From positions 1 through 42,174 of the forward strand of contig JAKAGV010000024.1 of NCBI GenBank assembly GCA_021815405.1: a DNA stretch of 42,174 nt, read 5' to 3'. Position 1 is the stretch's first letter, and every line of letters begins with the position of its first letter. This DNA comes from Bacteroidota bacterium. Lineage in GTDB: Bacteria > Bacteroidota > Ignavibacteria > Ignavibacteriales > Ignavibacteriaceae. This document shows, piece after piece, positions 11,674 to 41,958 of this stretch. The notes below the pieces were generated by a model. It did no database searches. It saw only the letters and a list, made by a program, of their open reading frames with translations, and was not told where the DNA came from. The translations under genes were made by a program, and so were the position numbers.

Positions 11674-12342
11674 ATGAATAATAAATCTGAAACAGAACTA
11701 TTGAATTATTTTGAGAAGAATGCTTATGCGGCTGTTTTTTCGGATATTTTGGATGAAATGGGATATCATTTTCAAGTTGTATCTCCCAATGCAGGAATTC
11801 ATCCCTTAAAAGAAAATTTTGTTATCGCCGGTAGAGTAGTAACACTATTAAACGAAAGTGATAATAATGAAGAAGAACCATACGATGCTGTAATAAAGTG
11901 TATTGATTCCTTGAAACCGGATACAATAATAGTAACTACTGGCACGGATAGATTTGTTACAGGAATAATGGGAGAATTAACTGCAACCGCATTACGGACA
12001 AGAAAAAGCCGAGGTGCAATTGTGAATGGTTATTCTCGCGATGTAAGAAAATTGATTAGCATGGATTTTCCGACTTTTGCCTGGGGTGCTTCACCTATAG
12101 ATACAACAGGCAGAGTAAGGGTTATCGATTATAATGTCCCTGTAGTTATAGGAGGAGTAAAAATATTTCCGGAAGATTTAATATTTGCGGATCTTGATGG
12201 AATAGTCGTCATCCCGAGGAAAGTTGAAAAAGAAGTAACAGAAGAAGTAATAAAAAGAATAAGTACGGAAAACGTCGTTAGAAAAGAATTGGGTGAAGGA
12301 AAAACGATGGCTGAAGTTTGGAATAAGCATCATGTTTTATGA
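11674..12342 (+). CDS. RraA-like protein (HMG/CHA aldolase family)
   Basis: A 222-residue cytoplasmic protein of the RraA/4-hydroxy-4-methyl-2-oxoglutarate aldolase family, once called 'demethylmenaquinone methyltransferase'. Features are GRVV at 53-56, the GIMGEL loop at 97-102, and the metal/substrate-binding R122-D123 in GYSRDVR. FAWGASPIDTTGR and LIFADLDGIVVIPR follow at about 136-147 and 169-182. The Arg-Asp pair and MGE loop suggest a real aldolase or decarboxylase rather than the RNase E-inhibitor branch. Such enzymes cleave 4-hydroxy-2-keto acids to pyruvate, which would suit downstream steps of sugar-acid catabolism. It lacks a signal peptide and sits alone among genes for secreted enzymes, with about 260 bases free upstream and 150 downstream. 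Confidence 0.85.
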   Translation: MNNKSETELLNYFEKNAYAAVFSDILDEMGYHFQVVSPNAGIHPLKENFVIAGRVVTLLNESDNNEEEPYDAVIKCIDSLKPDTIIVTTGTDRFVTGIMGELTATALRTRKSRGAIVNGYSRDVRKLISMDFPTFAWGASPIDTTGRVRVIDYNVPVVIGGVKIFPEDLIFADLDGIVVIPRKVEKEVTEEVIKRISTENVVRKELGEGKTMAEVWNKHHVL

Positions 12343-17971: not shown

Positions 17972-18202
17972 TTGAATTATCTAAGAACAAGTATTAAATA
18001 TTAAACCTTCATAAAATCTTTTAAAAAATTGCAAAAAAAATTTGAGTAATTGATTTAATAATTAGTCTATCCCATTTTATCCTACGTAGCACATCATTCT
18101 GTAAATCTAATATGATTTAATAATAACAGTTCCAGAGACTGGTTAAAAAAAAATCTCATTGCTTATTATTTGTATAAAATCTTTTTTCGTACTCTATTTC
18201 AA

Positions 18203-18208
18203 GAGGAG
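18203..18208 (+). promoter_or_regulatory. Strong Shine-Dalgarno deciding the TonB-receptor start
   Basis: GAGGAG lies six bases before the ATG at 18215. The frame is open back to an ATG at 18170, but that extension lacks a ribosome binding site and would put 15 odd residues before a good signal peptide. SD sequences this good are rare in this window. Confidence 0.7.
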
Positions 18209-18214
18209 AACAAA

Positions 18215-21112
18215 ATGAACAAATTATATTATGTCGCAAATATTACAATAATAATTACCTTTTTATTAAGTATTAAAATACTCGCAGGCGGTTCAAAAAT
18301 AGAAGGGTATGTACAGGATGCTCAAACGGGAAAGGCATTGCCCGGGGCATATATTGTTATTAAAGGAACAGGCTTTGGCGCAGTAACAAATACGAACGGT
18401 AGGTATGCAATTGAAAATGTACCGGCTGGTTCATATGTTATAAAAGTAACGTTTATAGGTTATAGAACAGGAGAATATTCTATTAAAATAATAGAAGGAA
18501 TTAATGTAGAACGTAATTTTAAACTTGAAGCAGTTTCTTTACGCGGTAAGACAGTTGTAGTTACTGCACAGGCAGGAGGTCAAAATGCAGCAATAAATCA
18601 GCAGCTCTCATCGAGCCAAATTGAAAACGTAGTATCCTCGGCGCGTATTAGAGAACTGCCAGATGAAAATGCTGCTGAATCTGTAGGTCGACTTCCGGGA
18701 GTATCTCTGATAAGATCTGGTGGCGAAGGTGCACAGGTTGTAATAAGAGGATTAGCGCCGAAATATAATTTAATTACAATAGATGGAGTACAAATACCGA
18801 GTAACGTATCCGGAAGTAATGCTGTTGATTTAAGCATGATCTCTTCCAGTATGCTTGATGGAATACAAGTTATTAAGGCTGTTACGCCAGATATGGATGC
18901 ATCAGCATTGGGAGGAACGGTCAACTTTCAATTAAGGGAAGCTGCAAACACTAATTTAAGCAACGCATTTAATCTTACTGCCCAAGGGGGATATAATGGT
19001 TTACTAAACACTTACTCAAATTATAAATTTGTTGGAAGTTCTGAGGCTCGCTATTTTAATTCAAAATTAGGAATCTTTGGTGAGGTTAGTGCGGAAAGAC
19101 GTGATTTGACCTCCAACGTTTTAGGTGCATCTTTCTCATTGAATGGACCTGTGCTAGGTAAAGTAAATCCAACTTATTTAGATGTCCTAGCTCTTACCGA
19201 TGTCCCGCGCATTGTGCAACGTTACGGAGGTACAATTACTATGGATTATAAAAGCTCAGATTTGGAAATAGGTCTGATGAATCTATTTAGTTTAAGTAAT
19301 ACGAATGCACAATATAGAGGAGAATCGTATAGTCTTATTAGCAATCTTCATAATATGGCGACTACCGATGAACAGAATAAACTCGATATTATTACAAATA
19401 TTCTAGATATTAAAAAGAACTTCCAATATTTTACAGTTGATGCGAAATTAGCTCATTCTTATTCAGAGAATATTATTCCCAATGGTGAAGTTTTTTCGTT
19501 TACGCAGAGTTCTGTGGGGCTTAGCCATGTTTCCTATCAACGATTAAATCCACAAGAAATTCCTCCTCTTGCAAGTATTGATTTATCCAAAACTTTTTTA
19601 CAAACTTGGGACAAGTTTAATAGTTTTAACAGAAACCGTCATCTTTCTGCTTCACTTGATTTCCAATCCCAATTCAATTTTTCACAGGAAATTACTAGCA
19701 AATTTAAATTTGGCGGCATGTTTAAATATTCTATCAACTCTTATGATTATAACATTGGTGATGGATCAATGGTTTATTCAAGTTACCCAATAATACAAGC
19801 ACTGATAAATGCATTTCCATGGATGGCTAAAACTATTTCTAATTCAAATTCATTGATCCCTTATACTTTATTAGAAATGTCAAATTTTAATTATGGGAAA
19901 TTTTTGGGGGGAAATTATCACATGTATCCAGCTACAAACATTGGGCTCATGCACCAAATGATTAGTATTATCAGTCAGCCTCAAAATGTAACTGAGCAAT
20001 CATTCCCTTATGATAGTTTTTTATCAACTACGAGTGACTATTCTGGTAAAGAATATGAAAGTGCTGCTTACATAATGGCTACTACAAATTTTGGACAGGA
20101 TATTTCATTAATAACAGGTGCAAGATTTCAGCAGCTTGTAACTGCTTACACTGCACCAAGAGGATATCAAACCTCTGAAGCCGGCATTTCGTATAGTTAT
20201 CACGACACAACAATCGATGAAACACATGGTTACTGGCTGCCCATGGCACTTTTAAAATATAAACTATTGCCCTGGTTACAATTACATTTAGCATATACTA
20301 ATACATTACATTATCCTTCATATACATCAATAGTACCGAAAATTAATATCGGATTGTCAGGGAATATTGCATGGAATAATTTTGCTTTAAAACCAGCGCG
20401 TTCGGAAAATTATGATGTTGCAGTTGCTTTATACAGTAATAATATAGGTTTATTTACAGTTGATGGATTCTTAAAACACATATCCAATTTAATATTTCCA
20501 TTTACTGAGTATGTTGTTAATCCTTCGAATTATCCTGGAATTCCAGGTAACACTGTCGGAGATTTAATAGCTACATTTGAAAATAATCCAAATCCGGTAG
20601 ACCTTTGGGGAGTAGAGCTTGATTGGCAGACACACTTTTGGTACCTGCCAAGTGTCCTATCCGGATTGATTCTCGATATAAATTATACTCATATATTTTC
20701 AAAAGCTAAGTACCCCTTGACTACTGTTTCAACTGTGTATTACCCTAAATTTCAGAAAACGATAGACTACAGCTTTTATACAGACCGTATGGTTTATCAA
20801 CCAGATAACATTGTTAATTTATCAATCGGATATGATTATAAAGGTTTCTCGTCTCGTGTTTCTATGATTCTTCAATCTAAAGTATTTCAAGGTACAAATT
20901 TCTGGCCGGAACTTAGGGTAAATACTGCAAGATATGTTAGGTGGGATATATCTGTTAAGCAAGAGTTGGGCTTGTTTGGAATTCAAGCATTCTTTGATAT
21001 TAGCAACTTAAATAATGAAAGCGATCTAAGCCTAAATCAAGGATCAAACTTCCCAGTGTCTGAACAGTATTATGGTCTTAAAGCCGATCTGGGATTCCAG
21101 AAGAACTTTTAA
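18215..21112 (+). CDS. TonB-dependent receptor with carboxypeptidase-regulatory domain
   Basis: An outer-membrane transporter of 965 residues from the chosen start. After the signal peptide comes a CarboxypepD_reg-like domain (about 30-115, SKIEGYVQDAQTGKALPGAY...). Next is the plug (about 125-235) with RELPDENAAESVGRLPGVSL, GGEGAQVVIRGLAPKYN and ITIDGVQI. The rest is a 22-strand-type barrel rich in alternating aromatic/polar strands, ending in F. The plug wording resembles the TIGR01782 (Xanthomonas/Caulobacter) class of carbohydrate receptors rather than classic SusC. No SusD-like lipoprotein follows, so this is not a standard Sus pair. It likely imports oligosaccharides across the outer membrane using TonB energy, supplying the periplasmic glycosidases encoded around it. 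Confidence 0.92.
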   Translation: MNKLYYVANITIIITFLLSIKILAGGSKIEGYVQDAQTGKALPGAYIVIKGTGFGAVTNTNGRYAIENVPAGSYVIKVTFIGYRTGEYSIKIIEGINVERNFKLEAVSLRGKTVVVTAQAGGQNAAINQQLSSSQIENVVSSARIRELPDENAAESVGRLPGVSLIRSGGEGAQVVIRGLAPKYNLITIDGVQIPSNVSGSNAVDLSMISSSMLDGIQVIKAVTPDMDASALGGTVNFQLREAANTNLSNAFNLTAQGGYNGLLNTYSNYKFVGSSEARYFNSKLGIFGEVSAERRDLTSNVLGASFSLNGPVLGKVNPTYLDVLALTDVPRIVQRYGGTITMDYKSSDLEIGLMNLFSLSNTNAQYRGESYSLISNLHNMATTDEQNKLDIITNILDIKKNFQYFTVDAKLAHSYSENIIPNGEVFSFTQSSVGLSHVSYQRLNPQEIPPLASIDLSKTFLQTWDKFNSFNRNRHLSASLDFQSQFNFSQEITSKFKFGGMFKYSINSYDYNIGDGSMVYSSYPIIQALINAFPWMAKTISNSNSLIPYTLLEMSNFNYGKFLGGNYHMYPATNIGLMHQMISIISQPQNVTEQSFPYDSFLSTTSDYSGKEYESAAYIMATTNFGQDISLITGARFQQLVTAYTAPRGYQTSEAGISYSYHDTTIDETHGYWLPMALLKYKLLPWLQLHLAYTNTLHYPSYTSIVPKINIGLSGNIAWNNFALKPARSENYDVAVALYSNNIGLFTVDGFLKHISNLIFPFTEYVVNPSNYPGIPGNTVGDLIATFENNPNPVDLWGVELDWQTHFWYLPSVLSGLILDINYTHIFSKAKYPLTTVSTVYYPKFQKTIDYSFYTDRMVYQPDNIVNLSIGYDYKGFSSRVSMILQSKVFQGTNFWPELRVNTARYVRWDISVKQELGLFGIQAFFDISNLNNESDLSLNQGSNFPVSEQYYGLKADLGFQKNF

Positions 21113-23328: not shown

Positions 23329-23676
23329 TATATATATAATTAAAACAATATTTATAAATAAGCTGCAAAAGTTTCGTTTGTCGAGTGTTAATAAAAAGAT
23401 GGAAATGATTTTGAGAACATTTAATAATATGTTCTTGAAAAAATAATAAATGAATCTTTAAAACAGTTTCCTAAATAGATTCAATATGAACCTGGTAATT
23501 AAAAAAACATTTTTTACCATTTCTTTGAACGATCAAAATGTATGAATTAAAAAATTGAATGCATCTTTTGGAAAACTGAATTAATTCATAAAATTTTTAT
23601 AGACATCTTAACACATAAAAATTAATTAATATCGAAAACTTTTAAGGCTATTCTGTTGAAATCATTTGAGTCACAT

Positions 23677-26890: not shown

Positions 26891-28228
26891 ATGAAAAGAA
26901 ACCTATTTGTTTTGTTTATTGTACTTTTGTTAATAAATACTCAAAGTATTCTACCCCAAAATAGTACTAGTTCTATTGATAATATTCCAGAATTCTTGCC
27001 ACAAAAGAAAAATTCATTTATAGAAGAAGACAAAAAACCGTCCGGTTTCAGCATTAGAGGGATTAAGGGATGGTCATGGACTCCAGAACAATATCTTAAA
27101 GAAATTCCTATCCTTGCAAAATACAAGATGAACTTTTTAATGGAAGGTTATATATCCATGTTCAGTCAACCACTAGTTGCCAATTCTAATATTAAATGGA
27201 ATAATGAATGGTGGCTGCCAATACCTCAAGCTAAGAAGAAAGCATATGAAAAAGTGTTTGAGAAATGCCGCAAGTATGGAATTACATTTTGTTTTTCACT
27301 TAATCCGCAGCTTTTCTCACCAAGACCATTAAAGCTTACGAGCAATAAGGATTTTGACAATATTTGGGAAAAATATAGCTGGGCACAGAAAAACGGAGTA
27401 AGATGTTTTTGCGTTGCTCTTGATGATGTTTCGGGAGTAAAGATTAGCGGTAAACTGCAATCGGAATTTGTAAATAGATTATTAACACGCTTAAGGAAAA
27501 AAGATCCGGGTGCACAAATGATATTCTGTCCTACATATTACTACGGAGACGGGACATCAGCAAAGCATAAACCTTACCTGGAACAATTAGCCAAATATCT
27601 TGATCCCAGCGTATATGTATTCTGGACAGGTCCTGAAGTTGTATCTCCCACTATAACTGTTAACGATGCGGAAATATTCAAAAATATAGTAAAGCATAGA
27701 GTGTTTCTTTGGGACAACTATCCAGTGAATGACGGACATGTGACCTTACACCTTGCACCGGTTACGGGAAGGGATAGAAATCTTTTCAAAGTAATCGACG
27801 GATATATGTCCAATCCATTTTTTCCTGAAGATGAAATGAACCGGATACCCCTATTTACTATTGCTTCTTATACTTACGATCCGCAGGATTACAATCCTGA
27901 AAAATCTATCGGTCAGGCAATCATTCATCAGACTAATAATAAAGCCCAACAACAGGTGCTGTTAAAACTAGTGCAGTTATTTTCCAGCAAAATAGAAAGC
28001 ACTGCGTTTAATTCTGTTATTAATGATTTTCAACAGATAACCGATATATCTTATTCACGATATCTTGCGGATTTGTATATAAAATACTTAAAAGAAGTAC
28101 AGAAAGAGTTAATTGAAAGATTTCCTAATAAATATAATAATACTAAGATAATGTTTTCAAAAACAATTAAGACTGTTGAAAATGATTATCGCAATAAATA
28201 CGGTGCAGCTTTTGCATTGTTTCATTAA
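26891..28228 (+). CDS. GH84-type beta-N-acetylglucosaminidase (secreted)
   Basis: A 445-residue exported protein with the order of motifs of the GH84 catalytic domain. These are WSWTPEQYLKEI (61-72), ITFCFSLNPQL (131-141), the adjacent catalytic aspartates D178-D179 in FCVALDDVSG, and FCPTYYYGDGTS (212-223). VFWTGPEVVSPTIT (243-256), FLWDNYPVNDG (272-282), LAPVTGRDRNL (288-298) and the following NPFFPEDEMNRIPLFTI stretch complete the set. GH84 uses substrate-assisted catalysis through the 2-acetamido group, and the first Asp of the pair polarises it. The usual N-terminal GH20b-like domain is missing: only about 50 residues precede the barrel. It implies that the target glycan or glycoprotein carries beta-linked GlcNAc-type residues. 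It lies 39 bases downstream of paralog D, probably in one transcript. Confidence 0.85.
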   Translation: MKRNLFVLFIVLLLINTQSILPQNSTSSIDNIPEFLPQKKNSFIEEDKKPSGFSIRGIKGWSWTPEQYLKEIPILAKYKMNFLMEGYISMFSQPLVANSNIKWNNEWWLPIPQAKKKAYEKVFEKCRKYGITFCFSLNPQLFSPRPLKLTSNKDFDNIWEKYSWAQKNGVRCFCVALDDVSGVKISGKLQSEFVNRLLTRLRKKDPGAQMIFCPTYYYGDGTSAKHKPYLEQLAKYLDPSVYVFWTGPEVVSPTITVNDAEIFKNIVKHRVFLWDNYPVNDGHVTLHLAPVTGRDRNLFKVIDGYMSNPFFPEDEMNRIPLFTIASYTYDPQDYNPEKSIGQAIIHQTNNKAQQQVLLKLVQLFSSKIESTAFNSVINDFQQITDISYSRYLADLYIKYLKEVQKELIERFPNKYNNTKIMFSKTIKTVENDYRNKYGAAFALFH

Positions 28229-28370: not shown

Positions 28371-29639
28371 ATGAATAAAACTACTTTAACAAAAAAAATA
28401 ATGAAACCAATACTTGCTGTTGTCGGTCCTGCCGCAGTAATGACAGCTGGCGTAATGGGTTCAGGTTCCACAACTTCATTGATTCTTTCCGGGACATATT
28501 TTGGTTATAGTTTACTTTGGGTGGCAGTTTATACAATTCCGATTTTAGTAATCATTCAGGATTCGGCTTCTCGAATCGGTGTAATGTCTGGGAATAAAGG
28601 AATGTTTACAATTATGGACGAACAAATTCATCCTTTATTAAAATGGTTTTTTTTATTTCCGATTATCATCCTTGCATTTGTAGCAAACATGGGGCAAACA
28701 AAGGTAATGGTATCATCAGTTCTTACAATATTAGGGGCTTATAATCCTGTTTATGGGATAATAATACTTACTACCGTTGTAGTTGTAATTGGTGTATGGC
28801 TTACGGTAATTTTCGGAGGTTATAAAAGAATCGAAAAAATTATGACTGGCGTACTTTTTTTTATGGCTTTAGCGTTCTTGCTTGTAAGTCTAAAAGGATT
28901 TGAAAAACCGTTAGAGATATTGAAAGGTTTGGTTCCTAATATACCGCCAAATGACGGCGGACGGAATTCACTTCAGTTTATTTCTGCTATAACCGGCGCT
29001 TCAATTGCGATTACAGCTATATTAGCTTTCCCATACTTTACTGCGGAAGGGGGATATAAAAAACAGGATGTGTCAGCTAATTTCAAGAAAGCAGTTTTAA
29101 CCTTCGGATTGATACGCGGTATATGGTGCATAGCTGCTTTGGTAGCAGGTGCATCGGTTTTATTCGTACTTTCAAATCATTTAAAAATAGAAAACATAAG
29201 TCAGGCAGGACAAATTCTCGGTCCGATTTTAGGAAATTGGGGAGTTGTAATTTTTTCACTCGGATTATTCGGTTCAGCATACGCAACGTTTATTGTTGTA
29301 GCGCAGCTGCTTACTTACTTTACACTGGACGCATTCAAAAAGGATTGGCGATTTGATATAAAGAACAAAAGATTTATAGTACTCTTCTCGATTTTTTTAT
29401 TTCTGCCGGGACTAACATCATTTTTATGGAACATACCGGCTTTACTTTCGATAGTCGCGGCAATGATGTTAAGCGTATTCGGAACGCCGATTACAATTAT
29501 TATAGTTATTTATCTTATGAATAAAAAAAACTTCATCGGAGAAAACAAAGCAAGTATAGCACGCAATACAATCTTAGCTGTAGGATTTATATTAACCTTC
29601 ATGCTTGCTTATTACCAGATTGTTCAATTCATAAAATAA
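28371..29639 (+). CDS. NRAMP-like transporter lacking the canonical metal-binding motifs
   Basis: A 422-residue inner-membrane protein with about 11 hydrophobic segments, fitting the NRAMP branch of the LeuT/APC fold. TM1 keeps GP19-20 and the glycine-rich unwound region. Where metal-transporting NRAMPs have DPGN, it reads MGSGS (29-33). The TM6 motif, normally MPH, is TAILAFPYF (215-223), and the following AEGGYKKQD loop takes the place of the usual one. Without the Asp, Asn and Met ligands, transition-metal transport is unlikely. Its place between a GH84 and a lyase suggests transport of a glycan product or an organic anion. That is inference: I see a family resemblance and the missing motifs, not a substrate. 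Confidence 0.75.
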   Translation: MNKTTLTKKIMKPILAVVGPAAVMTAGVMGSGSTTSLILSGTYFGYSLLWVAVYTIPILVIIQDSASRIGVMSGNKGMFTIMDEQIHPLLKWFFLFPIIILAFVANMGQTKVMVSSVLTILGAYNPVYGIIILTTVVVVIGVWLTVIFGGYKRIEKIMTGVLFFMALAFLLVSLKGFEKPLEILKGLVPNIPPNDGGRNSLQFISAITGASIAITAILAFPYFTAEGGYKKQDVSANFKKAVLTFGLIRGIWCIAALVAGASVLFVLSNHLKIENISQAGQILGPILGNWGVVIFSLGLFGSAYATFIVVAQLLTYFTLDAFKKDWRFDIKNKRFIVLFSIFLFLPGLTSFLWNIPALLSIVAAMMLSVFGTPITIIIVIYLMNKKNFIGENKASIARNTILAVGFILTFMLAYYQIVQFIK

Positions 29640-29681: not shown

Positions 29682-30746
29682 ATGAAATCAATTTTATGGT
29701 TTGTACTAAATATTACTTTAGCCTTCAGCCTCATATTTTCATCTTTAAATTATGCTAAATATAATAATTCTAGTTTGAAAGGAAAAGCTTCGTCCTTAGC
29801 GGTTGAAAACGATTCTTCATTAAGTAAGCTCACGGTGAAGAAATACAATTATTCTAATCTGAATGAAATTAGAAGACAGAATGAAGAATATATTTCGAAA
29901 ATGCTTCGTGAAAGAAAATTTTTCCCTTTGGGGAAAAGAATAGTGGTAGCATACGCTGGAATGCATTACGATGCGCAAAAAAGACCGAAGATAAAAGAAA
30001 TGATTTCCAGGCTAAAAGATCTTGGAGTAAATTGTTACAGCTATTTGATAGATAGCTCTCCAACCGAAGACCTGGCTAAACTGCCTGAGTTTTGCAGCCT
30101 CGCTTCAAAAGCCGGAATTGAAGTTTGGGTTGTACTAGTTCCTCCGACTGAAGAACCAGGGCAAAAAGGAATGCCGGATAATTTAAGATATCCGCCGTAC
30201 GGTCTTAATTATGTGAAGTGGGCAAAACAAATTTCGGAAATTTCAAAAGAGCATAAAAATTTGAGGCTGTTAATGATAGATGACTTCGCTTATAATCTTA
30301 AAAAATTTAGCTTGTCTTATACAAAAGAAATTTATCATGCGCTGAAATCTAATAACAGGAATATTCTTTTCGGAATTACTTGTTATGAAAATCAATTAGG
30401 AAAGAGCAAATTCGATCTCAACAGCTATAAACCCTATATTGAAGCAGTTGAATGGGGTTATCAATCTAATTCCAAATTTGATACCGATTACGGCATAAGC
30501 GCAAAAAGTCTATCCTATAATATTCAAGATTTTAGGAAAGCATTCCCAAATAACTTACTGATTCCATGCATATACTTCAATCCTAATTCTTCATGGAAGA
30601 GAGAACCGACGGCTGACTATCTTAAGGACTGCATATCAATTGCTTACAAAGAAGCCGGTATTGCTTTTATATATTGTACACCGGATATAGGTACAGAAAA
30701 TTATAAAATAGTCAAAAATTTTTGCAGAGAAAAATTAATTAGATAA
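29682..30746 (+). CDS. Secreted TIM-barrel-like protein with IDDF motif, distant relative of paralogs A-D
   Basis: A 354-residue exported protein, unrecognised. After a signal sequence and a linker rich in Ser and Asn (about 25-75), the barrel-like domain shows strand/helix alternation: KRIVVAYAGMHYD (85-97), DLGVNCYSYLID (113-124), IEVWVVLVPPTEEP (146-159) and LRLLMIDDFAYN (194-205) with D200-D201. A late strand carries GIAFIYCTPDIG. The IDDF position, the 'YL.D.I..AYK' helix and the final strand parallel the four copies above, though identity is low and it has neither the regulatory-like domain nor a T9SS tail. It may be a minimal, diverged member or an unrelated barrel with a convergent motif. 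The lyase gene follows 33 bases later. Confidence 0.65.
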   Translation: MKSILWFVLNITLAFSLIFSSLNYAKYNNSSLKGKASSLAVENDSSLSKLTVKKYNYSNLNEIRRQNEEYISKMLRERKFFPLGKRIVVAYAGMHYDAQKRPKIKEMISRLKDLGVNCYSYLIDSSPTEDLAKLPEFCSLASKAGIEVWVVLVPPTEEPGQKGMPDNLRYPPYGLNYVKWAKQISEISKEHKNLRLLMIDDFAYNLKKFSLSYTKEIYHALKSNNRNILFGITCYENQLGKSKFDLNSYKPYIEAVEWGYQSNSKFDTDYGISAKSLSYNIQDFRKAFPNNLLIPCIYFNPNSSWKREPTADYLKDCISIAYKEAGIAFIYCTPDIGTENYKIVKNFCREKLIR

Positions 30747-30779: not shown

Positions 30780-33700
30780 ATGAAAGTAAAAATATTTACC
30801 GCCGTTATATTAATCGTAGCCTTGCAGTGCGGCTTTATCTATAGTGTTTCAATAACTGGTTCAAAATTATTTGATAATTCTGTAGTTACCGAAAAAGTTG
30901 ATTACAAACAGGATTTTAGTGGAGGCTCTGTAAGCGGATGGGAATCATATCCGCCCTTTCAGGATACCGGATTTGATCCTTATTTTTATTGTACAAGAGT
31001 CGATGCACCGAACGGCAATAAATATGCGCTTATGTTCGAATACCATCCCACATTCAAAACAGAACATGAGATGGGTTTTATAAAAAAGTTGTCTCTTGTA
31101 GCAGACGATAATTCAAAAGTATCTTTCTATTATAAAGCGGACGGATACGGTTATTTTAAGGGGATGAAAATAGTTTTGTACGGAACCAATGGTAAGCGAT
31201 ATTCTTATAAAACATCAATTAACGACAACAGGAGATGGATTTTTATTGATGTCCCTGTTAAAAATTTTAAGAATTCTGGCGAATCTATAAAATCTGGAAT
31301 TGGAATCAGCGGGTTCTCAATGGTTACTTATATTCCCAAAACAAATCCTGATATTAATTATAGATTATATTTTACAGATTTAACTATTGCGGCAATGCAG
31401 GCAGTAAAATTTAAAATACTAAAACCTGCCACTGATTACCTTGAAAATATAGATTTGATTGTACCGCTTCATCATTATCATGCCGGACAAAAGTTTAATC
31501 TTTCTGCAAAATTACCTTGGACAGTAAAGTTAAAATCCGCTGATGTAAGTTTGAGTAATCCGGATGGAAAAATTATTTTGCAAAATGTTTCGTTGGAATT
31601 GAATTCGTCCACTAATATTTGGGGTAAGGATAATATTTATGATTTTTCCAAAGATGATATTCCAGGGCAATGGTGCGTTGAAATTAATGGTATGGACGAC
31701 AGCGGAAAAAAGGTTGAAACAAAATTTAACATTTGGTTGATGCGGAAAAATATACCACATCCAAGGTTGTTCTTTACCGATAAACAAATTAATGAATGCA
31801 AAGAAAAAATTAAGAGCAAGCATTGGAAAAGCTGGTGGGACTCATTAATTAATAAAGCAACTGATTTAAGGAATACATCCAATGTAGGTTCTATAAAAAT
31901 TCCTAAGAAGAAATCCGGTTTAAGAAATGTTTCTCAGACAAAATTAAGTTTGGAATCACTTTCAAAAGTTAATATTTGTAAGTTTGATTCTGTTCATTTA
32001 TTGCCAACCATAAGCCACTATTTTGATATAATGCAGCCAGCTGAAAAAATTTTGCAGGACAATGCTTTGATTTATGCAATAACAGGAGATACTGCTGCAG
32101 GCAACTATGCTAAAAAAGCATTGTTAATAATATCGGGCTGGAAAACCTGGACGCATCCTTGGTTTACTGCAAGACACAGAGAAACATATTATCCTATAGG
32201 TGAACTAGGAGTCCGTGCAGCATTTTGTTACGATGTTGTTTATCCATTAATGACTAAAGAAGAAAGGGATAAAGTAAGCGAAGGACTGCTTAAAAATTGT
32301 ATTATTCCTGCATATGATGAATATGTTTTGCAGGATAGAGTTCCCTCGGCAACAAGTAATTGGGTAAGTAACACAGTTAGCGGAGGGCTTAGTTGTGCTC
32401 TTGCAATTTACTGCGATGATCCGAAGCTAGGGAGTCTTGAGCCTTATATTTCCGGATTATTAAAGAAGCTAGAAATAAATATTAATAACACTCTGGATAC
32501 TGCAGGTGCATGGGGAGAAGGAATTAACTATCAAGCCTTTGCTTATTCAAATACACTGCCGACTATTTCGGCAATTAAAAATGTTTTAAACCTGAATTTG
32601 GCAAGCAAAAGCTTATTAGGGTCTTATAAATATTTTCTGTATAATTTTTCCAATCCTGATATTCTTGATGTTGGAGATAGTCATACACAATTATCTACAT
32701 TATCGGAATATGCCTGGCTTTCCTCGTATTCGCATAATCCGGTATTCCAATGGCTTTATATGAAAAGCCCGAGGAACGAAATTTTTGATTTTATGTTTGG
32801 AAGTGATAAGGGTAAAGTAACCCCTCCGACTTCACTTCCAACATCCATACAATTTCCTGAACTAGGCGCTGTTGTTTTTAGATCTGGCTGGTCACCAGAT
32901 GATATAGTAATGAATTTTAGATCAGGTCCATTTTATAATCACCAGCATTTTGACCAGGGAAGCTTTCAGATAAATGCCTTCGGTCAATCATTATTAACCG
33001 AAGCCGGATGGGCTAATTATTATACAAATCCGTATTATCGCAGTTATTATATTCAGCCTATAGGGCACAACACGCTTCTTCTTGATGAGGATGGCGGTTC
33101 TCAAAGAAGCGGTGACTTCCTTCATTTTATAAAAGCTGCGGATAAGCATGCCAGGCTGAAAGATTTTATTACAACTAACTTCTATTCATCGGCTACGGGC
33201 AAATTAGCCGATATATACCGTGGTAAGCTTAGTCTGTTCGAAAGAAATATAATATTTGTGAATAAAAAATATTTCGTTGTTTATGACAGAATAAAATCCT
33301 CCAAAGACCCGCATAGTTACGATTTACTTTTCCATTTTGCAAATTCTAAAGAAGCTAAATTAGAAAATAATAACACATTTACTTTTTCAACGGATAAAGC
33401 ATCTCTTTATTCACAGGTAATTTTTCCTGAAAACATAAAAATGAAAATAGTTGATAGACCCGTAAAGTTTGGTGACCCAATAACAATGCCCGGATATGTT
33501 CAGGTTAGCAATTCTAAAAAAAGTATGGAAGAAAACTTTTTAACAGTTCTTTATCCAGTTAAAGGCGATGGAAGTGTGTTAAATTTATCTGGTGATATTA
33601 CAAAACTAAATGGAAATAATTATATCGGTATAAAAGTGAATGAAAATAATCAAATTGATGAGCTCCTCTTCAGCACTACCGCAACAAAATCTGGAAATAA

Positions 33701-34052
33701 AAATATCAAAGCTGGAAAACTCGAAGCTGACGCACGTGTTGCGGAAGTTAGCATAAAGGATAATAAATTATTGAATTTTGCAGGACAGGAAGCTATAAAC
33801 TTTAATTACGGCGGGACAAAATATATAGAAACAAATTTACCGGTAACATTTGCGGTAAAAATGAAAACAAAATCAGATAGATGGGAATTTAGCTCTCATA
33901 AAAATTTCAGCGCTAAAATAAATTTAACTTCGCAGCCTGAAAAAATCATATTAAACGGAAAAGAACCCCTCAAAAGCCGGTATCATATTGAAAATAGTAA
34001 ATTGAGTATTTCTATTTCAAAAGGAAATAATTTACTTGAAATAGAATATTAA
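30780..34052 (+). CDS. Heparinase II/III-family polysaccharide lyase-like protein
   Basis: A 1090-residue secreted protein. An N-terminal beta-rich segment (about 40-320) may bind carbohydrate. PHPRLFFTDKQINECKEKIK (327-346) introduces the alpha/alpha toroid, which contains NWVSNTVSGG (527-536) and GAWGEGINYQAFAYS (576-590) with candidate catalytic Y584. The heparinase II/III beta-sandwich follows, with NHQHFDQGSFQINAFG (720-735; H721, H723) and QPIGHNTLLLDEDG (759-772; H763). These are the family's metal and catalytic positions. It would cleave uronic-acid-containing chains by beta-elimination, giving unsaturated ends that suit the KduD-like enzyme nearby. Heparan, hyaluronan-like, alginate or another uronan cannot be distinguished. 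No sulfatase is encoded here, favouring an unsulfated substrate. Confidence 0.85.
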   Translation: MKVKIFTAVILIVALQCGFIYSVSITGSKLFDNSVVTEKVDYKQDFSGGSVSGWESYPPFQDTGFDPYFYCTRVDAPNGNKYALMFEYHPTFKTEHEMGFIKKLSLVADDNSKVSFYYKADGYGYFKGMKIVLYGTNGKRYSYKTSINDNRRWIFIDVPVKNFKNSGESIKSGIGISGFSMVTYIPKTNPDINYRLYFTDLTIAAMQAVKFKILKPATDYLENIDLIVPLHHYHAGQKFNLSAKLPWTVKLKSADVSLSNPDGKIILQNVSLELNSSTNIWGKDNIYDFSKDDIPGQWCVEINGMDDSGKKVETKFNIWLMRKNIPHPRLFFTDKQINECKEKIKSKHWKSWWDSLINKATDLRNTSNVGSIKIPKKKSGLRNVSQTKLSLESLSKVNICKFDSVHLLPTISHYFDIMQPAEKILQDNALIYAITGDTAAGNYAKKALLIISGWKTWTHPWFTARHRETYYPIGELGVRAAFCYDVVYPLMTKEERDKVSEGLLKNCIIPAYDEYVLQDRVPSATSNWVSNTVSGGLSCALAIYCDDPKLGSLEPYISGLLKKLEININNTLDTAGAWGEGINYQAFAYSNTLPTISAIKNVLNLNLASKSLLGSYKYFLYNFSNPDILDVGDSHTQLSTLSEYAWLSSYSHNPVFQWLYMKSPRNEIFDFMFGSDKGKVTPPTSLPTSIQFPELGAVVFRSGWSPDDIVMNFRSGPFYNHQHFDQGSFQINAFGQSLLTEAGWANYYTNPYYRSYYIQPIGHNTLLLDEDGGSQRSGDFLHFIKAADKHARLKDFITTNFYSSATGKLADIYRGKLSLFERNIIFVNKKYFVVYDRIKSSKDPHSYDLLFHFANSKEAKLENNNTFTFSTDKASLYSQVIFPENIKMKIVDRPVKFGDPITMPGYVQVSNSKKSMEENFLTVLYPVKGDGSVLNLSGDITKLNGNNYIGIKVNENNQIDELLFSTTATKSGNKNIKAGKLEADARVAEVSIKDNKLLNFAGQEAINFNYGGTKYIETNLPVTFAVKMKTKSDRWEFSSHKNFSAKINLTSQPEKIILNGKEPLKSRYHIENSKLSISISKGNNLLEIEY

Positions 34053-34152: not shown

Positions 34153-35184
34153 ATGGATAAAATACGTTTTGGAATAATCGGGCTTGGAATAATGGGACAG
34201 AATTACCTTGAAATATATAAATCCCAGAATCCTATGACTCATGTATCCGCAGTAGCAAACCATTCTGAAAACATATTAAAAAGTGTTTCGAATAAATTCG
34301 GAATTGCTGAAGCGGACAGGTATACTGATTACAAAAAAATTCTTGATAGAAAAGACATAAATGCCATTGTAGTTGCTACTCCTGATTTTGCTCATACACA
34401 AATAGTAATTGATGCACTTTCCGCGGGCAAACACGTTTTGGTAGAAAAACCGTTAACCATTTCTACTAAAGAAGCCGACCAAATTGTAGAAGCAGTTAAA
34501 AAAACTAATCTAAAACTTCAGGTAAATTATAACCATAGATGGCTATCTTCATATTATGAAGCAAAGATGCAGATCCAGAGCGGTGCAATCGGCAAACCCT
34601 TGGTTGCTTATGCAAGAAAAAATGATACGATTTATGTTGCGACCGGAATGCTTAAGTGGGCTTCGAAATCTAATCCTACATACTTTTTGAGTGCGCATGA
34701 TGTAGATCTTGTTAGATGGTTTTTTAACAGCGAGCCTATTGAAGCGAGGGCATACGGAGTTAAAGAAGTCATGGTGAAAAAAGGTATAGATACTTATGAT
34801 ATTATTCAGGGTCAGGTAAAATTCCAGAATGGCAGCATAGCTACATTTGAATCCGGCTGGATTTATCCGGATACATTTCCGACAATGACCGATTCGTTCG
34901 TTGAGGTAATAGGTGCAAACGGACATCTTCACCTTGACCGTAAATACGAATCTATTGAAGTCAGCACGGAGAAAGGATTTACTTATCCGAAAACTTTTCT
35001 GATAAAAAATATTTTCGGAAAAGTGCGAGGTGCGTTTGCAAACGCTCTCGATTCTTTTGCTGATTGCATTTTAAATAATACCGATCCGGTTGTAAGTGCA
35101 TTTGATGGAAGACAGGTTACGGCTGTTCTAGAAGCAATTGTAAAATCAGCTGACAACAACGGAGAGACAATAAAAATAAAATGA
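34153..35184 (+). CDS. Gfo/Idh/MocA family oxidoreductase (first of two)
   Basis: A 343-residue NAD(P)-dependent sugar dehydrogenase-type protein. The Rossmann loop is GIIGLGIMG (7-15), the EKP cofactor motif is at 98-100, and HDVD at 182-185 supplies the usual active-site histidine and aspartate. The C-terminal alpha/beta domain covers about 125-340. No signal peptide is visible. It overlaps the next gene by ATGA, so it is translationally coupled to the amidohydrolase-like genes. Family members oxidise or reduce a hydroxyl on sugars, inositols or sugar acids. Together with the following amidohydrolase-2 proteins, oxidation to a lactone followed by hydrolysis is a reasonable but unproven scheme. 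Confidence 0.92.
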   Translation: MDKIRFGIIGLGIMGQNYLEIYKSQNPMTHVSAVANHSENILKSVSNKFGIAEADRYTDYKKILDRKDINAIVVATPDFAHTQIVIDALSAGKHVLVEKPLTISTKEADQIVEAVKKTNLKLQVNYNHRWLSSYYEAKMQIQSGAIGKPLVAYARKNDTIYVATGMLKWASKSNPTYFLSAHDVDLVRWFFNSEPIEARAYGVKEVMVKKGIDTYDIIQGQVKFQNGSIATFESGWIYPDTFPTMTDSFVEVIGANGHLHLDRKYESIEVSTEKGFTYPKTFLIKNIFGKVRGAFANALDSFADCILNNTDPVVSAFDGRQVTAVLEAIVKSADNNGETIKIK

Positions 35185-35939
35185 GTAATATTAAAAGCGA
35201 TCTTACGTTTTTTGATTGCAATGTTTTTATAGGTCGACATCAAAATCCTTACATTGATTCTCCCTTTAATATTAGCATACTTGAAGATACTATGATAGCA
35301 TCCGGTCTGAGCGGAGGTCTCATTTATCATTCTGCTTCTTTCTTATATGATGCTTCTTACGGCAATAAAATATTACTTGATGAAGCAAAAGGTAAAACGG
35401 AATTTAAACTAGTATGGATTGCTTTACCAGAATATTGCACCCCGGAAACTAATGCAGAGAATTTTATTTCTCAGTTAAAAAAGAATAAAATATCGGCGGT
35501 AAAAATTTTTCCGCGGTATCATAATTTTAATGTTGTTACCGGTTCGCTTGATTTGCTGTTTAATTTCTTAAGCGAAGAAAAAATTCCGTTGCTCGCAGAC
35601 CAGGAAGAAATTTCCTGGGAGGAAATAGTTTATATCCTTAACAGATATAATGAAATGCCTTTCCTGCTTCAAAATACAGGTTATAGGATGGAACGTTATA
35701 TAATTCCTTTTTTCGATAAATATAAAAATTTTTATCTTGATATTTCTCGCTATCAAGCGCATGGTGGAATTGAATATCTTTGCGGACAATTCGGTTCAGA
35801 CCGTATTTTGTTCGGTAGCGGGATGCCGGTTTTTTCTGCTGAACCAATAATGATGATGATAAATTATGCGGATATTTCGCTGAAGGAAAAGCAAAACATT
35901 TCTTCTAATAATATAATAAGGCTGCTGGGAAATGAGTAA
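35181..35939 (+). CDS. Amidohydrolase-2-like protein with degenerate metal site
   Basis: A 252-residue TIM-barrel protein similar in size and layout to its downstream neighbour, but lacking the family's metal ligands. The first-strand HxH is replaced by FDCNVFIG (11-18). The fifth-strand His region reads PLLADQEE (136-143). The eighth-strand Asp is lost, since FGSDMP in the neighbour is FGSGMP here (211-216). It is therefore probably catalytically dead, or uses another mechanism, and may pair with the active homolog as a heteromer. It overlaps the preceding gene by 4 bases and the following one by 8, which implies tight co-expression and fixed stoichiometry. Confidence 0.75.
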   Translation: MSNIKSDLTFFDCNVFIGRHQNPYIDSPFNISILEDTMIASGLSGGLIYHSASFLYDASYGNKILLDEAKGKTEFKLVWIALPEYCTPETNAENFISQLKKNKISAVKIFPRYHNFNVVTGSLDLLFNFLSEEKIPLLADQEEISWEEIVYILNRYNEMPFLLQNTGYRMERYIIPFFDKYKNFYLDISRYQAHGGIEYLCGQFGSDRILFGSGMPVFSAEPIMMMINYADISLKEKQNISSNNIIRLLGNE

Positions 35940-36699
35940 AACGGATTATGAAATTATTGATGCACATGCCCATGTGGGAAGTTATTTCCAGTTTCCGATA
36001 AGGCACAATGAAATAAAAGAAATTGTCGAGACAGCCCGCTCTTATGGAATAATAAAAATGTGCGCTAGTCATTTAATTAATTTTGTTTATGATACAGGAG
36101 ATGGTAATCAACTAACTCAAGATGCGATGACAGAGTATGCCGATTTTTTCTTATTCGGCGGTGTTCTTGATCCCAGTGAAAGTGAAATTGAAATTGAGAA
36201 TAAATACCTCGCTATAAATCCAAATGTTTGCATGTGGAACGAACTGCATCCGGCACTTCATCAATATCCGATCAGCGGAAGGGGATACAAATTCATACTT
36301 GATTTGATACGGAAAGATCCAAAGCCGGTTCTTGTTCATACCGACGAGAGCGATAAATTTTCGAAGCCGGGACAAATGGAAGAGTTGATCAAACGCTATC
36401 CAGAAATTCCTTTTATAATCGGACACAGCGGTAATGTAATTGGAGGATTTGAAATAGCAATTGAAATTGTTAAGAAATATGAAAATGCTTTCCTCGACAG
36501 CGCTTTCTCAAGAAATTATTTGGGATTGATGAAGCGGATGATTGATCAAGTCAGTGCGGAAAAAATATTATTTGGAAGTGATATGCCTTTTCTAAACGGG
36601 GCTGCTGAAATCGGTAAGCTGTACGAATCCGGAATTACGGATAATAACAGACAAAAAATATTTCATGATAATTCGGCTGAACTATTACGGATTAAATAA
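35932..36699 (+). CDS. Amidohydrolase family 2 (lactonase-like metallohydrolase)
   Basis: A 255-residue TIM-barrel hydrolase with an intact metal site: HAH (H12, H14) on the first strand, H136 in VLVHTDES, H165 in IGHSGN and D217 in FGSDMPF. Amidohydrolase-2 members include sugar lactonases and decarboxylases acting on cyclic acids. No signal peptide is visible, so it is cytoplasmic. It starts inside the end of its degenerate homolog, and both are bracketed by Gfo/Idh/MocA dehydrogenases. A sugar-lactone substrate produced by one of those dehydrogenases is the most economical guess. Confidence 0.85.
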   Translation: MSKTDYEIIDAHAHVGSYFQFPIRHNEIKEIVETARSYGIIKMCASHLINFVYDTGDGNQLTQDAMTEYADFFLFGGVLDPSESEIEIENKYLAINPNVCMWNELHPALHQYPISGRGYKFILDLIRKDPKPVLVHTDESDKFSKPGQMEELIKRYPEIPFIIGHSGNVIGGFEIAIEIVKKYENAFLDSAFSRNYLGLMKRMIDQVSAEKILFGSDMPFLNGAAEIGKLYESGITDNNRQKIFHDNSAELLRIK

Positions 36700-37928: not shown

Positions 37929-39689
37929 TTGACAATAATAGATTGGGGTTTTGTAGCTCTATACATTTTAATTTCACTTGGCATAGGCTTATATTTTAAA
38001 AATTATGCAGGTAAAAATATCGAAGAATATTTTATCAAAGGCAGAAATTTAAGCTGGTGGTTGATCGGTTTTTCTGCTGTAGCAGCATATACAGATGCCG
38101 GAATTGCGCCTGCAATAACTATGTGGGTTTATACTGGCGGATTGTTGGGCAACGGTGTTTGGTGGATTCCTTTTATAGTTTGGATGCCACTGTCTGCTGT
38201 TCTTTGGTCTAAATATTGGAGAAGGTTAAAGACGCTTACTTCGGCAGAATTAATTGAAATAAGATATTCAGGTAAAGCTGCAGGAATTTACAGAGGTATA
38301 TATGCTTTCCTGATTGGATTTGTTTTCACAGTTCTCTTAATGGGTTATGTTTCCGGGTGGATGACTGATGCATTAGGACCTATAATAGGATGGACGCCAT
38401 TCAATTTGATTTTTTATGCCGCACTTGCTACCGTAGTATACACAACATTGGCAGGACAGTACGGAGTTGTTTACGGTGATTTATTTCAATTTTTAATCTT
38501 TTTTATTGGAAACGCAATTTTTATTCCGATACTGTTAACTCATGTCGGTGGGATGAGCCATGTCTATTCAGGTATAGAAGCTTTAAGAGGCAGCAGCGCT
38601 AAAGAGTTCTTTAATGTACTTCCGCCGACTAACACATTAACCGGAATAACAATTTTTGCATTTGTTATACAAGGAATGTTCTTTGCAGCTTCTCCGACTG
38701 GCGGCGAGGGCTTTACCGCACAAAGATTTATGGCAGCAAAAAACGAGTTCCACGCACAAATAGGACAACTCTTTAATACAATGCTTACATTAATTATAAG
38801 AGTAGTTCCATTCATATTCACGGGCATGATAGCGGCTGCAATTTTTGCACCTCATACAATTGCTGATCCGGGTAAACTATGGGCGATGCTGATTCATAAA
38901 TTTTCACCAGTCGGATTAACAGGAGTAATTGTAGCTGGAATATTTGCGGCATATATGTCTACCATTAGTACCGAAATGAACATGGGCTCAGCTTACTTAA
39001 TAAATGATTTGTATAAGAGATTTATAAAGAAAGAAGCTAGTGATAAACATTATGTATTTGCAGCAAGGACTGCATCTGTTTTGCTTTTTGCACTTTCTCT
39101 ATTAGTTGCTTATTACCTTATAAAAGGAATGGAGTCATGGTTCTTATTTATTAATTCTGTTGTATTCGCATTTATTCTTCCATTAAGCTGGTTAAGATTT
39201 TTTTGGTGGAGGCTTAATATTTACGGTGAAGCATCCGCTTTAATAGTAGGGCTTCCCCTAGGTTATATTGTCTGGTTCCCTTTGGGATTTTCAAAACTTC
39301 CTTTCTGGGAAGGATTTCTACTTTTGTTCGGATTAGGCTGGATAGTTATTGTTACTGTAACATTACTTACGCAACCTGAAAAGCTGGAAACGCTTAAAAA
39401 CTTTTATTCCTTATGTAAACCGCCGGGATTATGGAGCCCAGTTACAAAAGAGTTCTCCAATATCGATAAAAGAAAAATTAGAAAAGAAACGATTGATGAT
39501 ATAATTGACAGTGTTATTGCAATTATAGTATGTGCTATGGTTATTTTGGTAGTAATTAGTTTATTCGGGAGAAATTATACTGTATTCGGCTATGCATTGT
39601 TAATTCTTATCATTAGCGGAACTTCGTTTATTATCAGATGGAAAAGAAAAGGTATCTTTACCGGACTAAGAAACAATGTGGGAGAGTAA
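37929..39689 (+). CDS. Sodium:solute symporter (SSS family)
   Basis: A 586-residue inner-membrane carrier with about 13-14 hydrophobic segments. It begins with MTIIDWGFVALYILISLGIG. The characteristic TM8 region GVIVAGIFAAYMSTISTEMNMGSAYLINDLYK (about 334-366) carries the Ser/Thr residues that form the Na2 site in this family. The start is TTG 37929, preceded by GGAGG at 37920-37924; an ATG at 37919 lies in another frame. SSS proteins use the sodium gradient to import sugars, sugar acids, amino acids or sialic acid. In this setting it most likely brings in a mono- or disaccharide or uronate product. The long C-terminal segment (about 500-586) holds two more hydrophobic spans. Confidence 0.9.
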   Translation: MTIIDWGFVALYILISLGIGLYFKNYAGKNIEEYFIKGRNLSWWLIGFSAVAAYTDAGIAPAITMWVYTGGLLGNGVWWIPFIVWMPLSAVLWSKYWRRLKTLTSAELIEIRYSGKAAGIYRGIYAFLIGFVFTVLLMGYVSGWMTDALGPIIGWTPFNLIFYAALATVVYTTLAGQYGVVYGDLFQFLIFFIGNAIFIPILLTHVGGMSHVYSGIEALRGSSAKEFFNVLPPTNTLTGITIFAFVIQGMFFAASPTGGEGFTAQRFMAAKNEFHAQIGQLFNTMLTLIIRVVPFIFTGMIAAAIFAPHTIADPGKLWAMLIHKFSPVGLTGVIVAGIFAAYMSTISTEMNMGSAYLINDLYKRFIKKEASDKHYVFAARTASVLLFALSLLVAYYLIKGMESWFLFINSVVFAFILPLSWLRFFWWRLNIYGEASALIVGLPLGYIVWFPLGFSKLPFWEGFLLLFGLGWIVIVTVTLLTQPEKLETLKNFYSLCKPPGLWSPVTKEFSNIDKRKIRKETIDDIIDSVIAIIVCAMVILVVISLFGRNYTVFGYALLILIISGTSFIIRWKRKGIFTGLRNNVGE

Positions 39690-41190: not shown

Positions 41191-41958
41191 ATGATTTTGG
41201 ATAAGTTTAGATTAAACGGTAAAACTGCATTAGTTACGGGATGCAAAAGAGGAATCGGTAAAGCAATTGCAGAGGGATTAGCCGAAGCCGGTGCAAATAT
41301 TATCGGGGTCAGTGCTTCATTGGAACTGGAAGGAAGCGAAGTCGAAAAAAAAATTAAAAAGATAGGAAGAAAATTCAAAGCATATCAGTGTGATTTTTCT
41401 AATCGAAAAAGTTTATATGAATTCATAAATAAGACAAAATCAGAAAATGAAAGAATCGACATTCTGATTAATAATGCAGGTACGCAACTACGCAAGCCTG
41501 TAGCAGAATTTCCCGATGAATACTGGGATAAAGTTATCGAAGTGAACTTGAATTCGCAGTTTATTTTAGCTAGAGAGTTTGGCAAAGAAATGATTAAACG
41601 GAGATACGGTAAAATAGTATTTACTGCTTCTCTTTTATCTTTTCAAGGAGGGATTACGATCCCGGCATATGCTGCAAGTAAAGGTGGACTTAAATCTTTA
41701 ACAATGGCATTTGCTAATGAGTGGGCAGATAAAGGGGTAAATGTAAACGCAATTGTACCAGGTTATATAGCTACAGACAATACAGAAGCCTTATTAAACG
41801 ATCCGTTAAGAAGTAATCAAATATCCTCAAGAATTCCTGCTGCTAGATGGGGAGTCCCAGAAGATATTAAAGGAGCTGCAGTTTTTTTATGTTCAGACGC
41901 ATCAAAATATATTCATGGGATAATGTTGGTCGTTGACGGTGGATGGATGGGGAGATAG
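41191..41958 (+). CDS. kduD: KduD-like SDR dehydrogenase (2-deoxy-D-gluconate 3-dehydrogenase type)
   Basis: A 255-residue short-chain dehydrogenase. The cofactor loop is TGCKRGIG (16-23), NNAG is at 94-97, and the catalytic residues are N119, S147, Y160 and K164. The whole C-terminal half (SLLSFQGGITIPAYAASK, NVNAIVPGYIATDNTEAL, RIPAARWGVPEDI, VVDGGW) runs closely parallel to E. coli KduD as I remember it. KduD reduces the 5-keto form of a deoxy-ketogluconate with NADH during catabolism of unsaturated uronates released by lyases. That links it to the heparinase-type lyase upstream. The usual partner KduI is not visible. The specific symbol is by resemblance, and related SDRs with other sugar-acid substrates cannot be excluded. 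Confidence 0.8.
   Translation: MILDKFRLNGKTALVTGCKRGIGKAIAEGLAEAGANIIGVSASLELEGSEVEKKIKKIGRKFKAYQCDFSNRKSLYEFINKTKSENERIDILINNAGTQLRKPVAEFPDEYWDKVIEVNLNSQFILAREFGKEMIKRRYGKIVFTASLLSFQGGITIPAYAASKGGLKSLTMAFANEWADKGVNVNAIVPGYIATDNTEALLNDPLRSNQISSRIPAARWGVPEDIKGAAVFLCSDASKYIHGIMLVVDGGWMGR

Follow-up and report, generated by a model that had tools for sequence, protein, structure and literature searches.

A rare NRAMP-related clade without the usual metal-site side chains, found near uronate catabolism genes

In canonical NRAMP/SLC11 proteins (MntH, DMT1; PF01566), the metal site is built around a DPGN motif in TM1 and an MPH motif in TM6, and the TM6 Ala gives a backbone ligand. KdgT and ExuT, the KDG/uronate transporters with the same job as that proposed below for an NRAMP-like protein, belong to protein families other than NRAMP. 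Outside the canonical proteins, the Mg2+ transporters of the EleNRMT type (NRMTs) are recognised, in the part of PMC8806188 drawn on here, by DxxG in TM1 and TxxA/T in TM6, and mutation of their TM1 Asp is described there as strongly compromising EleNRMT. An excerpt of PMC12873925 describes 'Nramp-related' proteins, which vary at the DPGN and MPH positions and are paraphyletic to canonical Nramps, and one of PMC10606218 names 'orphan' and NRMT outgroups within PF01566. A link to organic-acid catabolism is given by PxpT, which is required for the growth of Corynebacterium glutamicum on 5-oxoproline, and by the deletion of ycsG in Bacillus subtilis, which blocks 5-oxoproline use (both PMC13274462). 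This precedent is disputed, because YcsG, an NRAMP-family protein of the pxp operon, has been read as a Mn importer: cells that overproduced it contained more Mn, the gene was given the new name mntG, and the 5-oxoproline phenotype was called possibly polar (passages of PMC10448178). A search of open-licence papers found no NRAMP-family protein with a uronate assigned to it, and the nearest literature case is a figure legend in PMC6431674, where 'Nramp, metal-ion transporter' is written for two alginolytic systems of Alteromonas sp. 76-1; no assignment to the clade described below is implied. The branch that an earlier note on the present DNA had called new is new in part: Asp-less 'Nramp-related' or 'orphan' proteins and PxpT had already been described in the same excerpts (PMC12873925, PMC10606218, PMC13274462).

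The window is the whole stretch of 42,174 nucleotides that was analysed, and all coordinates refer to it unless another locus (L number) is named; G numbers denote genomes. Its NRAMP-like gene and the segments that matter for the metal site are as follows.

28371..29639, plus strand: NRAMP-like transporter without side-chain metal ligands, 422 aa (Pfam, tree, fold model, alignment)
28455..28469, plus strand: TM1 unwound segment M29-G-S-G-S33, canonical xDPGN (alignment, AF2 model)
28686..28697, plus strand: TM3 N106-M-G-Q109 in place of the canonical acidic pair (alignment; N, M and Q invariant in nine clade rows)
28995..29015, plus strand: TM6 unwound segment G209-A-S-I-A-I-T215, canonical GATxMPH (alignment, AF2 model)

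The protein matched Pfam Nramp (PF01566) over positions 3-356 of the 357 in the profile, at 132.3 bits (cut-off 29.8; E 2.9e-38), and PDB chains matched were EleNRMT (7qia, E 1.6e-15), Bacteroides fragilis Nramp (10ky, 5.1e-14) and Deinococcus radiodurans MntH (3.2e-9 at best). The NCBIfam models NF001923 and TIGR01197 gave 58.4 vs 430 and 26.5 vs 272.5, respectively, and the broad model NF037982 ('Nramp family divalent metal transporter') was narrowly passed (52.1 vs a cut-off of 50), which we counted against a uronate function. For motif mapping, the protein was aligned with Escherichia coli MntH and other NRAMP-family proteins (70 rows, counted as MntH and 69 further). In TM1, M29-G30-S-G-S33 is aligned with I-D34-P-G-N37 of MntH, with Asp changed to Gly30 and Asn to Ser33; in TM6, G209-A-S-I-A213-I-T215 is aligned with GATIMPH, with Met, Pro and His changed to Ala213, Ile214 and Thr215. 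The absence of DPGN and MPH claimed in the earlier note is thus borne out, with GSGS and AIT at the aligned sites, but the AILAFPYF that it had put in place of MPH is offset by three, being residues 216-223, just after the equivalent Ala-Ile-Thr at 213-215. The canonical TM3 Asp and Glu (each in 7/7 canonical rows) are replaced by Asn106 and Gln109, and the canonical TM10 Gln (7/7) by Met365, all of them invariant in the nine rows of the clade defined below. The Ala of TM6 is kept, as Ala210, in the window protein and its sister from L029 only, with Gly or Gln in the other seven clade rows. As aligned, therefore, all known side-chain metal ligands are confirmed to be changed in the window protein, and the claim that every metal ligand is missing holds for the aligned side chains, the TM3 acids and the TM10 Gln, but not for this backbone ligand. 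The L029 protein (81% identical) has identical residues at the ligand sites, and in the seven further clade rows Asp, Asn, Met and His are likewise missing from these sites, so that the loss is not a single-gene oddity.

The fold was predicted with AlphaFold2 from a 52-row alignment (pLDDT 91.9, pTM 0.90), and the model was broken in its helices at residues 29-30 and 212-213. In structure searches, NRAMP-family entries occupied Foldseek ranks 1-28 and VIA ranks 1-26; the best match was D. radiodurans MntH (6c3i; Z 46.0, rmsd 2.5 over 380 residues), with EleNRMT (7qji) at Z 44.1, human NRAMP1 (9f6p) at 41.1 and a YcsG model (9a52) at 39.0, and the first match outside the family was AdiC (Z 29.2). 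Because the model fits NRAMP structures best and is broken at these two places, the motif reading is not an alignment artefact, and the window protein is confidently predicted to have the NRAMP/LeuT-type fold. It resembles canonical NRAMPs in this predicted fold, in the TM1 and TM6 breaks and in GP..GYSLLW and other framework residues, and differs from them in lacking DPGN, MPH, the TM3 acids and the TM10 Gln, in forming its own clade and in its catabolic loci. With the NRMTs it shares the position outside canonical NRAMP, the fold (Z 44.1 as given above) and Ala at the TM6 Met site, as in 18/25 NRMT-like rows. However, NRMT-like rows keep the TM1 Asp (25/25), the TM3 Glu (24/25) and the TM10 Gln (25/25), none of which is found in the window clade, and in place of the DxxG and TxxA/T of the NRMTs the window protein has Gly30xxSer33 and Ala210xxAla213 (PMC8806188, as excerpted).

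Ligands supplied from elsewhere in the protein, which by the earlier note's own terms would speak against its reading, were considered as well. Two acids that do not vary within the clade, Asp64 in TM2 and Asp320, were rejected as replacement ligands; they look like framework, because NRMT-like rows carry Glu at both positions (25/25). Met107, Met113 and Met365 are invariant in the nine clade rows and mostly absent from other groups, and the Met365 site keeps Gln in 7/7 canonical, 25/25 NRMT-like and 19/19 GPGT rows. These three residues are possible soft-metal ligands, which we did not reject and judged less likely from gene context; the uronate reading leaves them unexplained, and they led us to rate sugar-acid import slightly lower and metal transport slightly higher. 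That a metal is still moved, either as a divalent cation through backbone carbonyls and water or as a soft metal through these methionines, would agree with PF01566 membership, with the replacement of the TM10 Gln by Met365 together with the invariance of Met107 and Met113, with the largely hydrated Mg2+ bound by EleNRMT (part of PMC8806188) and with the report of YcsG as a Mn importer (part of PMC10448178). We nevertheless consider it distinctly unlikely: 9/9 clade rows have Gly at the TM1 Asp site and amides at the sites of the TM3 acids, whereas the TM1 Asp is stated in a passage of PMC8806188 to be universally conserved in SLC11 and required for EleNRMT transport; the operon context of the clade is catabolic; and the window genome also encodes a separate canonical NRAMP with DPGN and MPH, which was counted in favour of the uronate reading. 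An invariant Arg198 precedes TM6 in the clade and is a candidate anion contact.

A tree of 70 rows of NRAMP-family proteins, from which the partial L112 was omitted, joined the window protein with those of L029, L114, L113, L098, L030, L111, L096 and L097 (9/70 rows) at a support of 100/100. Separate clades were formed by canonical DPGN proteins (7 rows, 100/100), by NRMT-like NDAGG/NDSGG proteins with one DPSG row (26) and by GPGT/VPYN proteins (19). The phylogenetic check proposed in the earlier note thus placed the window protein outside the canonical metal-transporting clade, and outside the NRMT-like group as well. The deeper position of the clade, including its grouping with an Asp-less GTGS group, had a support of 80/47 only; within the clade, the window protein and L029 paired with L114 at a weak 85/57, and the other six rows were their sister group (99/99). 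Loci that were shorter or repeated extracts around a gene already present were not added to the counts again (L060, L061, L067-L069, L102-L106 and L108-L110, and likewise L107 of L112). The clade is rare within the sampled genomes, which covered the phylum of the window and that of L030: its members were found in 1/395 genomes drawn from the former and 4/347 drawn from the latter (threshold >500 bits), in 2/164 genomes of the window's order and 1/294 in a draw from its class, and in 5/193 and 3/142 genomes of the classes of G688 and G545, both within the phylum of L030. A plasmid search returned seven records at 22-26% identity to the window protein, and no plasmid record matched the L096 protein.

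The genes of the window that bear on the cargo are listed below.

452..1219, minus strand: IclR-type regulator at the locus edge, conserved in the sister locus
8977..11415, plus strand: GH3 glycoside hydrolase, conserved in the sister
11674..12342, plus strand: RraA-like aldolase (PF03737), conserved in the sister
18170..21112, plus strand: TonB-dependent outer-membrane receptor (Plug and CarbopepD_reg_2), conserved in the sister
26891..28228, plus strand: GH84-like beta-N-acetylglucosaminidase, the gene before the NRAMP-like gene (PF07555, 182.8 bits)
29682..30746, plus strand: 354-aa protein, the next gene, between transporter and lyase, conserved (52% in the sister)
30780..34052, plus strand: heparinase II/III-like polysaccharide lyase (PF07940, 70.2 bits; signal-like N-terminus by eye)
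34153..35184, plus strand: Gfo/Idh/MocA oxidoreductase, conserved in the sister
35181..36699, plus strand: two Amidohydro_2-type genes, conserved in the sister, the first one below the Pfam cut-off
37929..39689, plus strand: sodium:solute symporter, a second transporter (PF00474)
41191..41958, plus strand: KduD-like 2-dehydro-3-deoxy-D-gluconate 5-dehydrogenase (TIGR01832 as best match, 315.8 bits, below the 338.85 cut-off)

In the sister locus, L029, of which 57 of the 63 kb of contig were searched, 16 genes are kept in unchanged order: those for the IclR regulator, a class-III aminotransferase, a D-2-hydroxyacid dehydrogenase, an M20 protein, GH3, the RraA-like aldolase, the TonB receptor, a beta-helix-like protein, one secreted T9SS-type protein, the NRAMP-like protein, the 354-aa protein, the lyase, Gfo/Idh, the two Amidohydro_2-type proteins and KduD. 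The lyase, which matched heparinase II and oligoalginate lyase in the PDB, is 70% identical in the sister, and the window KduD is 85% identical to the sister's and 44% to that of E. coli. The 354-aa protein gave no Pfam or NCBIfam match. Absent from the searched 57 kb of the sister were GH84, a SASA esterase, a GlcNAc-2-epimerase-like gene, a GH42-like gene, a DegT aminotransferase, the sodium:solute symporter and a ceramidase-like gene, and the second Gfo/Idh of the window found there just a 31% match, to the first Gfo/Idh. Because the symporter and these other genes are absent from the sister, the NRAMP-like protein is the sole evident inner-membrane transporter of the conserved set by Pfam scans. 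The symporter, which was not found in the other nine clade loci, could serve the same sugar in the window, and this was counted against the uronate reading, as were the distance of the window KduD from the NRAMP-like gene (11.5 kb), its score below cut-off and the lack of a KdgF in the window locus; KduI-family genes lie in two places elsewhere in the window genome. As an observation aside, four paralogues in the window (13989-15260, 15330-16598, 23656-25245 and 25286-26851) all match one sister gene at 51-64%; two of them carry T9SS tails by Pfam, which gives no catalytic family.

The conserved set also holds genes that would suit a different organic acid of the locus, such as an aldonate, a 2-keto acid or an amino acid, carried by analogy with PxpT: the class-III aminotransferase, the D-2-hydroxyacid dehydrogenase, the RraA-like aldolase and the two Amidohydro_2-type genes. 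KDPG-aldolase genes in two loci of the GTGS group point the same way. Such a cargo appears very unlikely, however, as the lyase and KduD are conserved in the very same locus.

The neighbourhoods of the other clade members give the uronate link its clearest form. In G688 (L096), the order is ROK, a KduI/IolB-family gene, a KdgF-type cupin, KduD, the NRAMP-like gene, Eda (KDPG aldolase), a KDG-kinase-like gene, a TonB-type outer-membrane protein (OMP) and a carboxylesterase, and 4 bp are shared between the NRAMP-like gene and Eda. There, two genes scored above curated cut-offs, KduD with 349.2 (equivalog cut-off 338.85) and Eda with 196.5 (TIGR01182, cut-off 156.05); the cupin matched the 'pectin degradation protein' entries 5fpz/5fpx best in the PDB, the KduI-family gene matched a KduI best in the PDB and scored higher in NCBIfam for IolB than for KduI, both below cut-off, and the kinase fitted best, below cut-off, a KDPG aldolase/kinase fusion model. 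The sub-threshold scores of the KduI-family gene and the kinase were counted against the uronate reading. G895 (L111) carries ROK, a KduI-family gene, KdgF, KduD, the NRAMP-like gene, an OMP (by eye), an esterase and a Pec_lyase gene; G497 (L097) carries ROK, KdgF, KduD and the NRAMP-like gene; and a KdgF-type cupin adjoins the transporter in both G545 and G1094, the latter cupin being 82% identical to the former. The NRAMP-like proteins of the strongest operons are 34-37% identical to the window protein and belong to the other sub-branch, so their substrates may differ, and this was counted against extending the uronate reading to the window. Also counted against it were the three of ten clade loci without a uronate gene: L030, a 4.5-kb contig with ROK and the start of an OMP gene; L112, whose contig begins inside the NRAMP-like gene; and L114 (5 kb), where an alcohol dehydrogenase and Gfo/Idh lie beside it.

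These neighbourhoods also bear on whether a neutral or amino sugar, a polyol or an inositol derivative from the same glycan is imported instead of a uronate. Such a cargo would fit the GH84 gene directly before the NRAMP-like gene in the window, the Gfo/Idh beside the divergent member L114, which scores best, below cut-off, with inositol dehydrogenase and has the alcohol dehydrogenase on the other side of the transporter gene, the best though sub-threshold score of the L096 KduI-family gene with IolB, and the ROK regulators beside L030, L096, L097 and L111. We hold it to be unlikely, as KdgF, KduD, Eda and the KDG-kinase-like gene jointly indicate uronates. GH84 was found in the window alone and in none of the other nine clade loci, and the amino-sugar cargo it had suggested was dropped because of this restriction to 1/10 loci. 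Of the sugar or uronate transporter proposed in the earlier note, the uronate part is therefore favoured, by catabolism genes in 7/10 clade loci, and the amino-sugar part is not; of the co-occurrence that it expected, the lyase is kept in the sister locus, but a lyase of the window type occurs in 2/10 clade loci (the window and L029, and none of the other eight), and GH84 in 1/10.

KdgF, KduI or KduD was found in 7/10 clade loci compared with 0/60 other NRAMP-family loci (L115-L174); the queries were KduD, KduI, KdgK and Eda of E. coli together with clade sequences of KdgF, KduI, KduD, Eda and the kinase. These controls were drawn from search matches rather than at random, several from one genome, and spanned approximately 8 kb per side where the contig allowed (10/60 were shorter than 17 kb, three of these 3.8-4.7 kb); clade and control spans differ, and the window KduD, 11.5 kb off, would fall outside the control span. 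The E. coli KduD query scored 229-256 bits in complete clade genes vs at most 124 in controls, and KduD was called in controls at 200 bits, with L134, L142 and L144 (60-124 bits, 25-34%) scored negative; L029, where the locus stops within KduD (135 bits), was scored positive on the 85% identity of the whole gene to that of the window. The KdgF and KduI queries had no match in the 60 control loci at E 1e-5. When Eda and KDG kinase were also counted, 2/60 controls became positive, namely the GTGS-group loci L134 and L141. Fisher's test gave p 1e-7 for KduI/KdgF/KduD and 3e-6 with Eda and KDG kinase added, values that come from related loci and from thresholds chosen after the scores were known. 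Thus, the clade is linked to uronate catabolism genes, and the window's own link consists of KduD and the lyase.

Taken together, the protein most likely represents a distinct PF01566 branch, devoid of the usual metal site, and acts as an inner-membrane importer of a uronic-acid breakdown product, as gene context suggests. From the same context, we put the probability that the window protein imports sugar acids in general at about 0.6; that its cargo is unsaturated uronate, DKI or KDG in particular is a more tentative proposal, somewhat short of an even chance. In such a pathway, the lyase would release a 4,5-unsaturated uronate outside the cytoplasm, which would open to its keto form either spontaneously or through KdgF, both routes being described in portions of PMC6868183 and PMC9510102. 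The unsaturated uronate, or DKI/DEH as its linear keto form, or perhaps KDG, would then bind between the unwound TM1 and TM6, in a pocket predicted to have Gly, Ser, Ala and Thr in place of Asp, Asn, Met and His, and Asn106 and Gln109 in place of the TM3 acids; with the acidic metal site turned into an amide-bearing pocket, a carboxylate would no longer be repelled. Alternating access would move the sugar acid inward, perhaps by H+ symport or uniport, and cytoplasmic KduD with its partners would convert the imported compound to KDG and onward. If this is right, a metal-importer family also yields uronate importers, and one fold has switched its cargo from metal cation to organic anion, which is uncommon; some 'orphan' Nramp-related proteins gain a function; and the metal label is corrected in glycan loci, for which the Alteromonas sp. 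76-1 legend is a printed example. The compact clade operons offer the setting in which the uronate idea can be tested.

Other Asp-less groups of the family extend the comparison. As a positive control, the neighbourhood approach recovered a known link for one of them, which was counted as a precedent in favour of the uronate reading. PxpA-, PxpB- and PxpC-type genes, sought with queries from L129, lie near 16/19 GPGT/VPYN loci (L116-L126, L129, L130, L137, L139 and L143, with L129 itself counted) and near 0/41 other controls and 0/10 clade loci. The L129 genes pass the PxpA and PxpB models, and the third fits 5-oxoprolinase/urea amidolyase and PxpC models best, below their cut-offs. Because of these neighbours, the GPGT/VPYN group probably consists of 5-oxoproline transporters; its rows were taken as PxpT relatives by their PxpABC neighbours and not by direct sequence comparison. 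The likeness of PxpT/YcsG to the window protein, as NRAMP-family proteins tied to organic-acid catabolism, is one of working principle, whereas the GPGT/VPYN rows form a separate supported clade, without PxpABC in any window-clade locus. The GTGS (IGTGS) group (L134:8061-9344, L141:7961-9232, L138:7976-9217, L131:8054-9352 and L158:7917-9158) is likewise Asp-less, and some of its members lie in sugar-acid or glycan loci: in 2/5 of the group's loci (L134 and L141) KDPG-aldolase genes exceed the curated cut-off, and L134 also has a KDG-kinase-like and L131 a NagB-like gene, each scoring below cut-off. Unlike this partial likeness in context, its motifs differ from those of the window clade, and the grouping of the two is unsupported (80/47). 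DgoK and SMP30, named by eye in L141, gave no NCBIfam match at 1e-20. It may be that loss of the TM1 Asp marks NRAMP-related lineages (the window clade, GPGT and GTGS) whose cargoes are organic acids, for the most part cyclic or sugar carboxylates, a generalisation that we find possible and rather less than evenly balanced. If true, the NRAMP scaffold moves metals or organic anions, organic-acid transport could predate metal transport in the family, and many 'divalent metal cation transporter' annotations are misnamed.

Two further NRAMP-related forms were seen among the controls. L115:8291-9616 encodes an LGPGS protein, and two genes away L115:11837-13564 encodes a membrane protein of 575 aa, which also looks NRAMP/APC-like by eye and gave no NCBIfam match at 1e-20. 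L127:8041-9285 and L136:8019-9263 form a separate long-branch group (FGSGS / ALWPN), and the neighbours of L127 look by eye respiratory and not catabolic.
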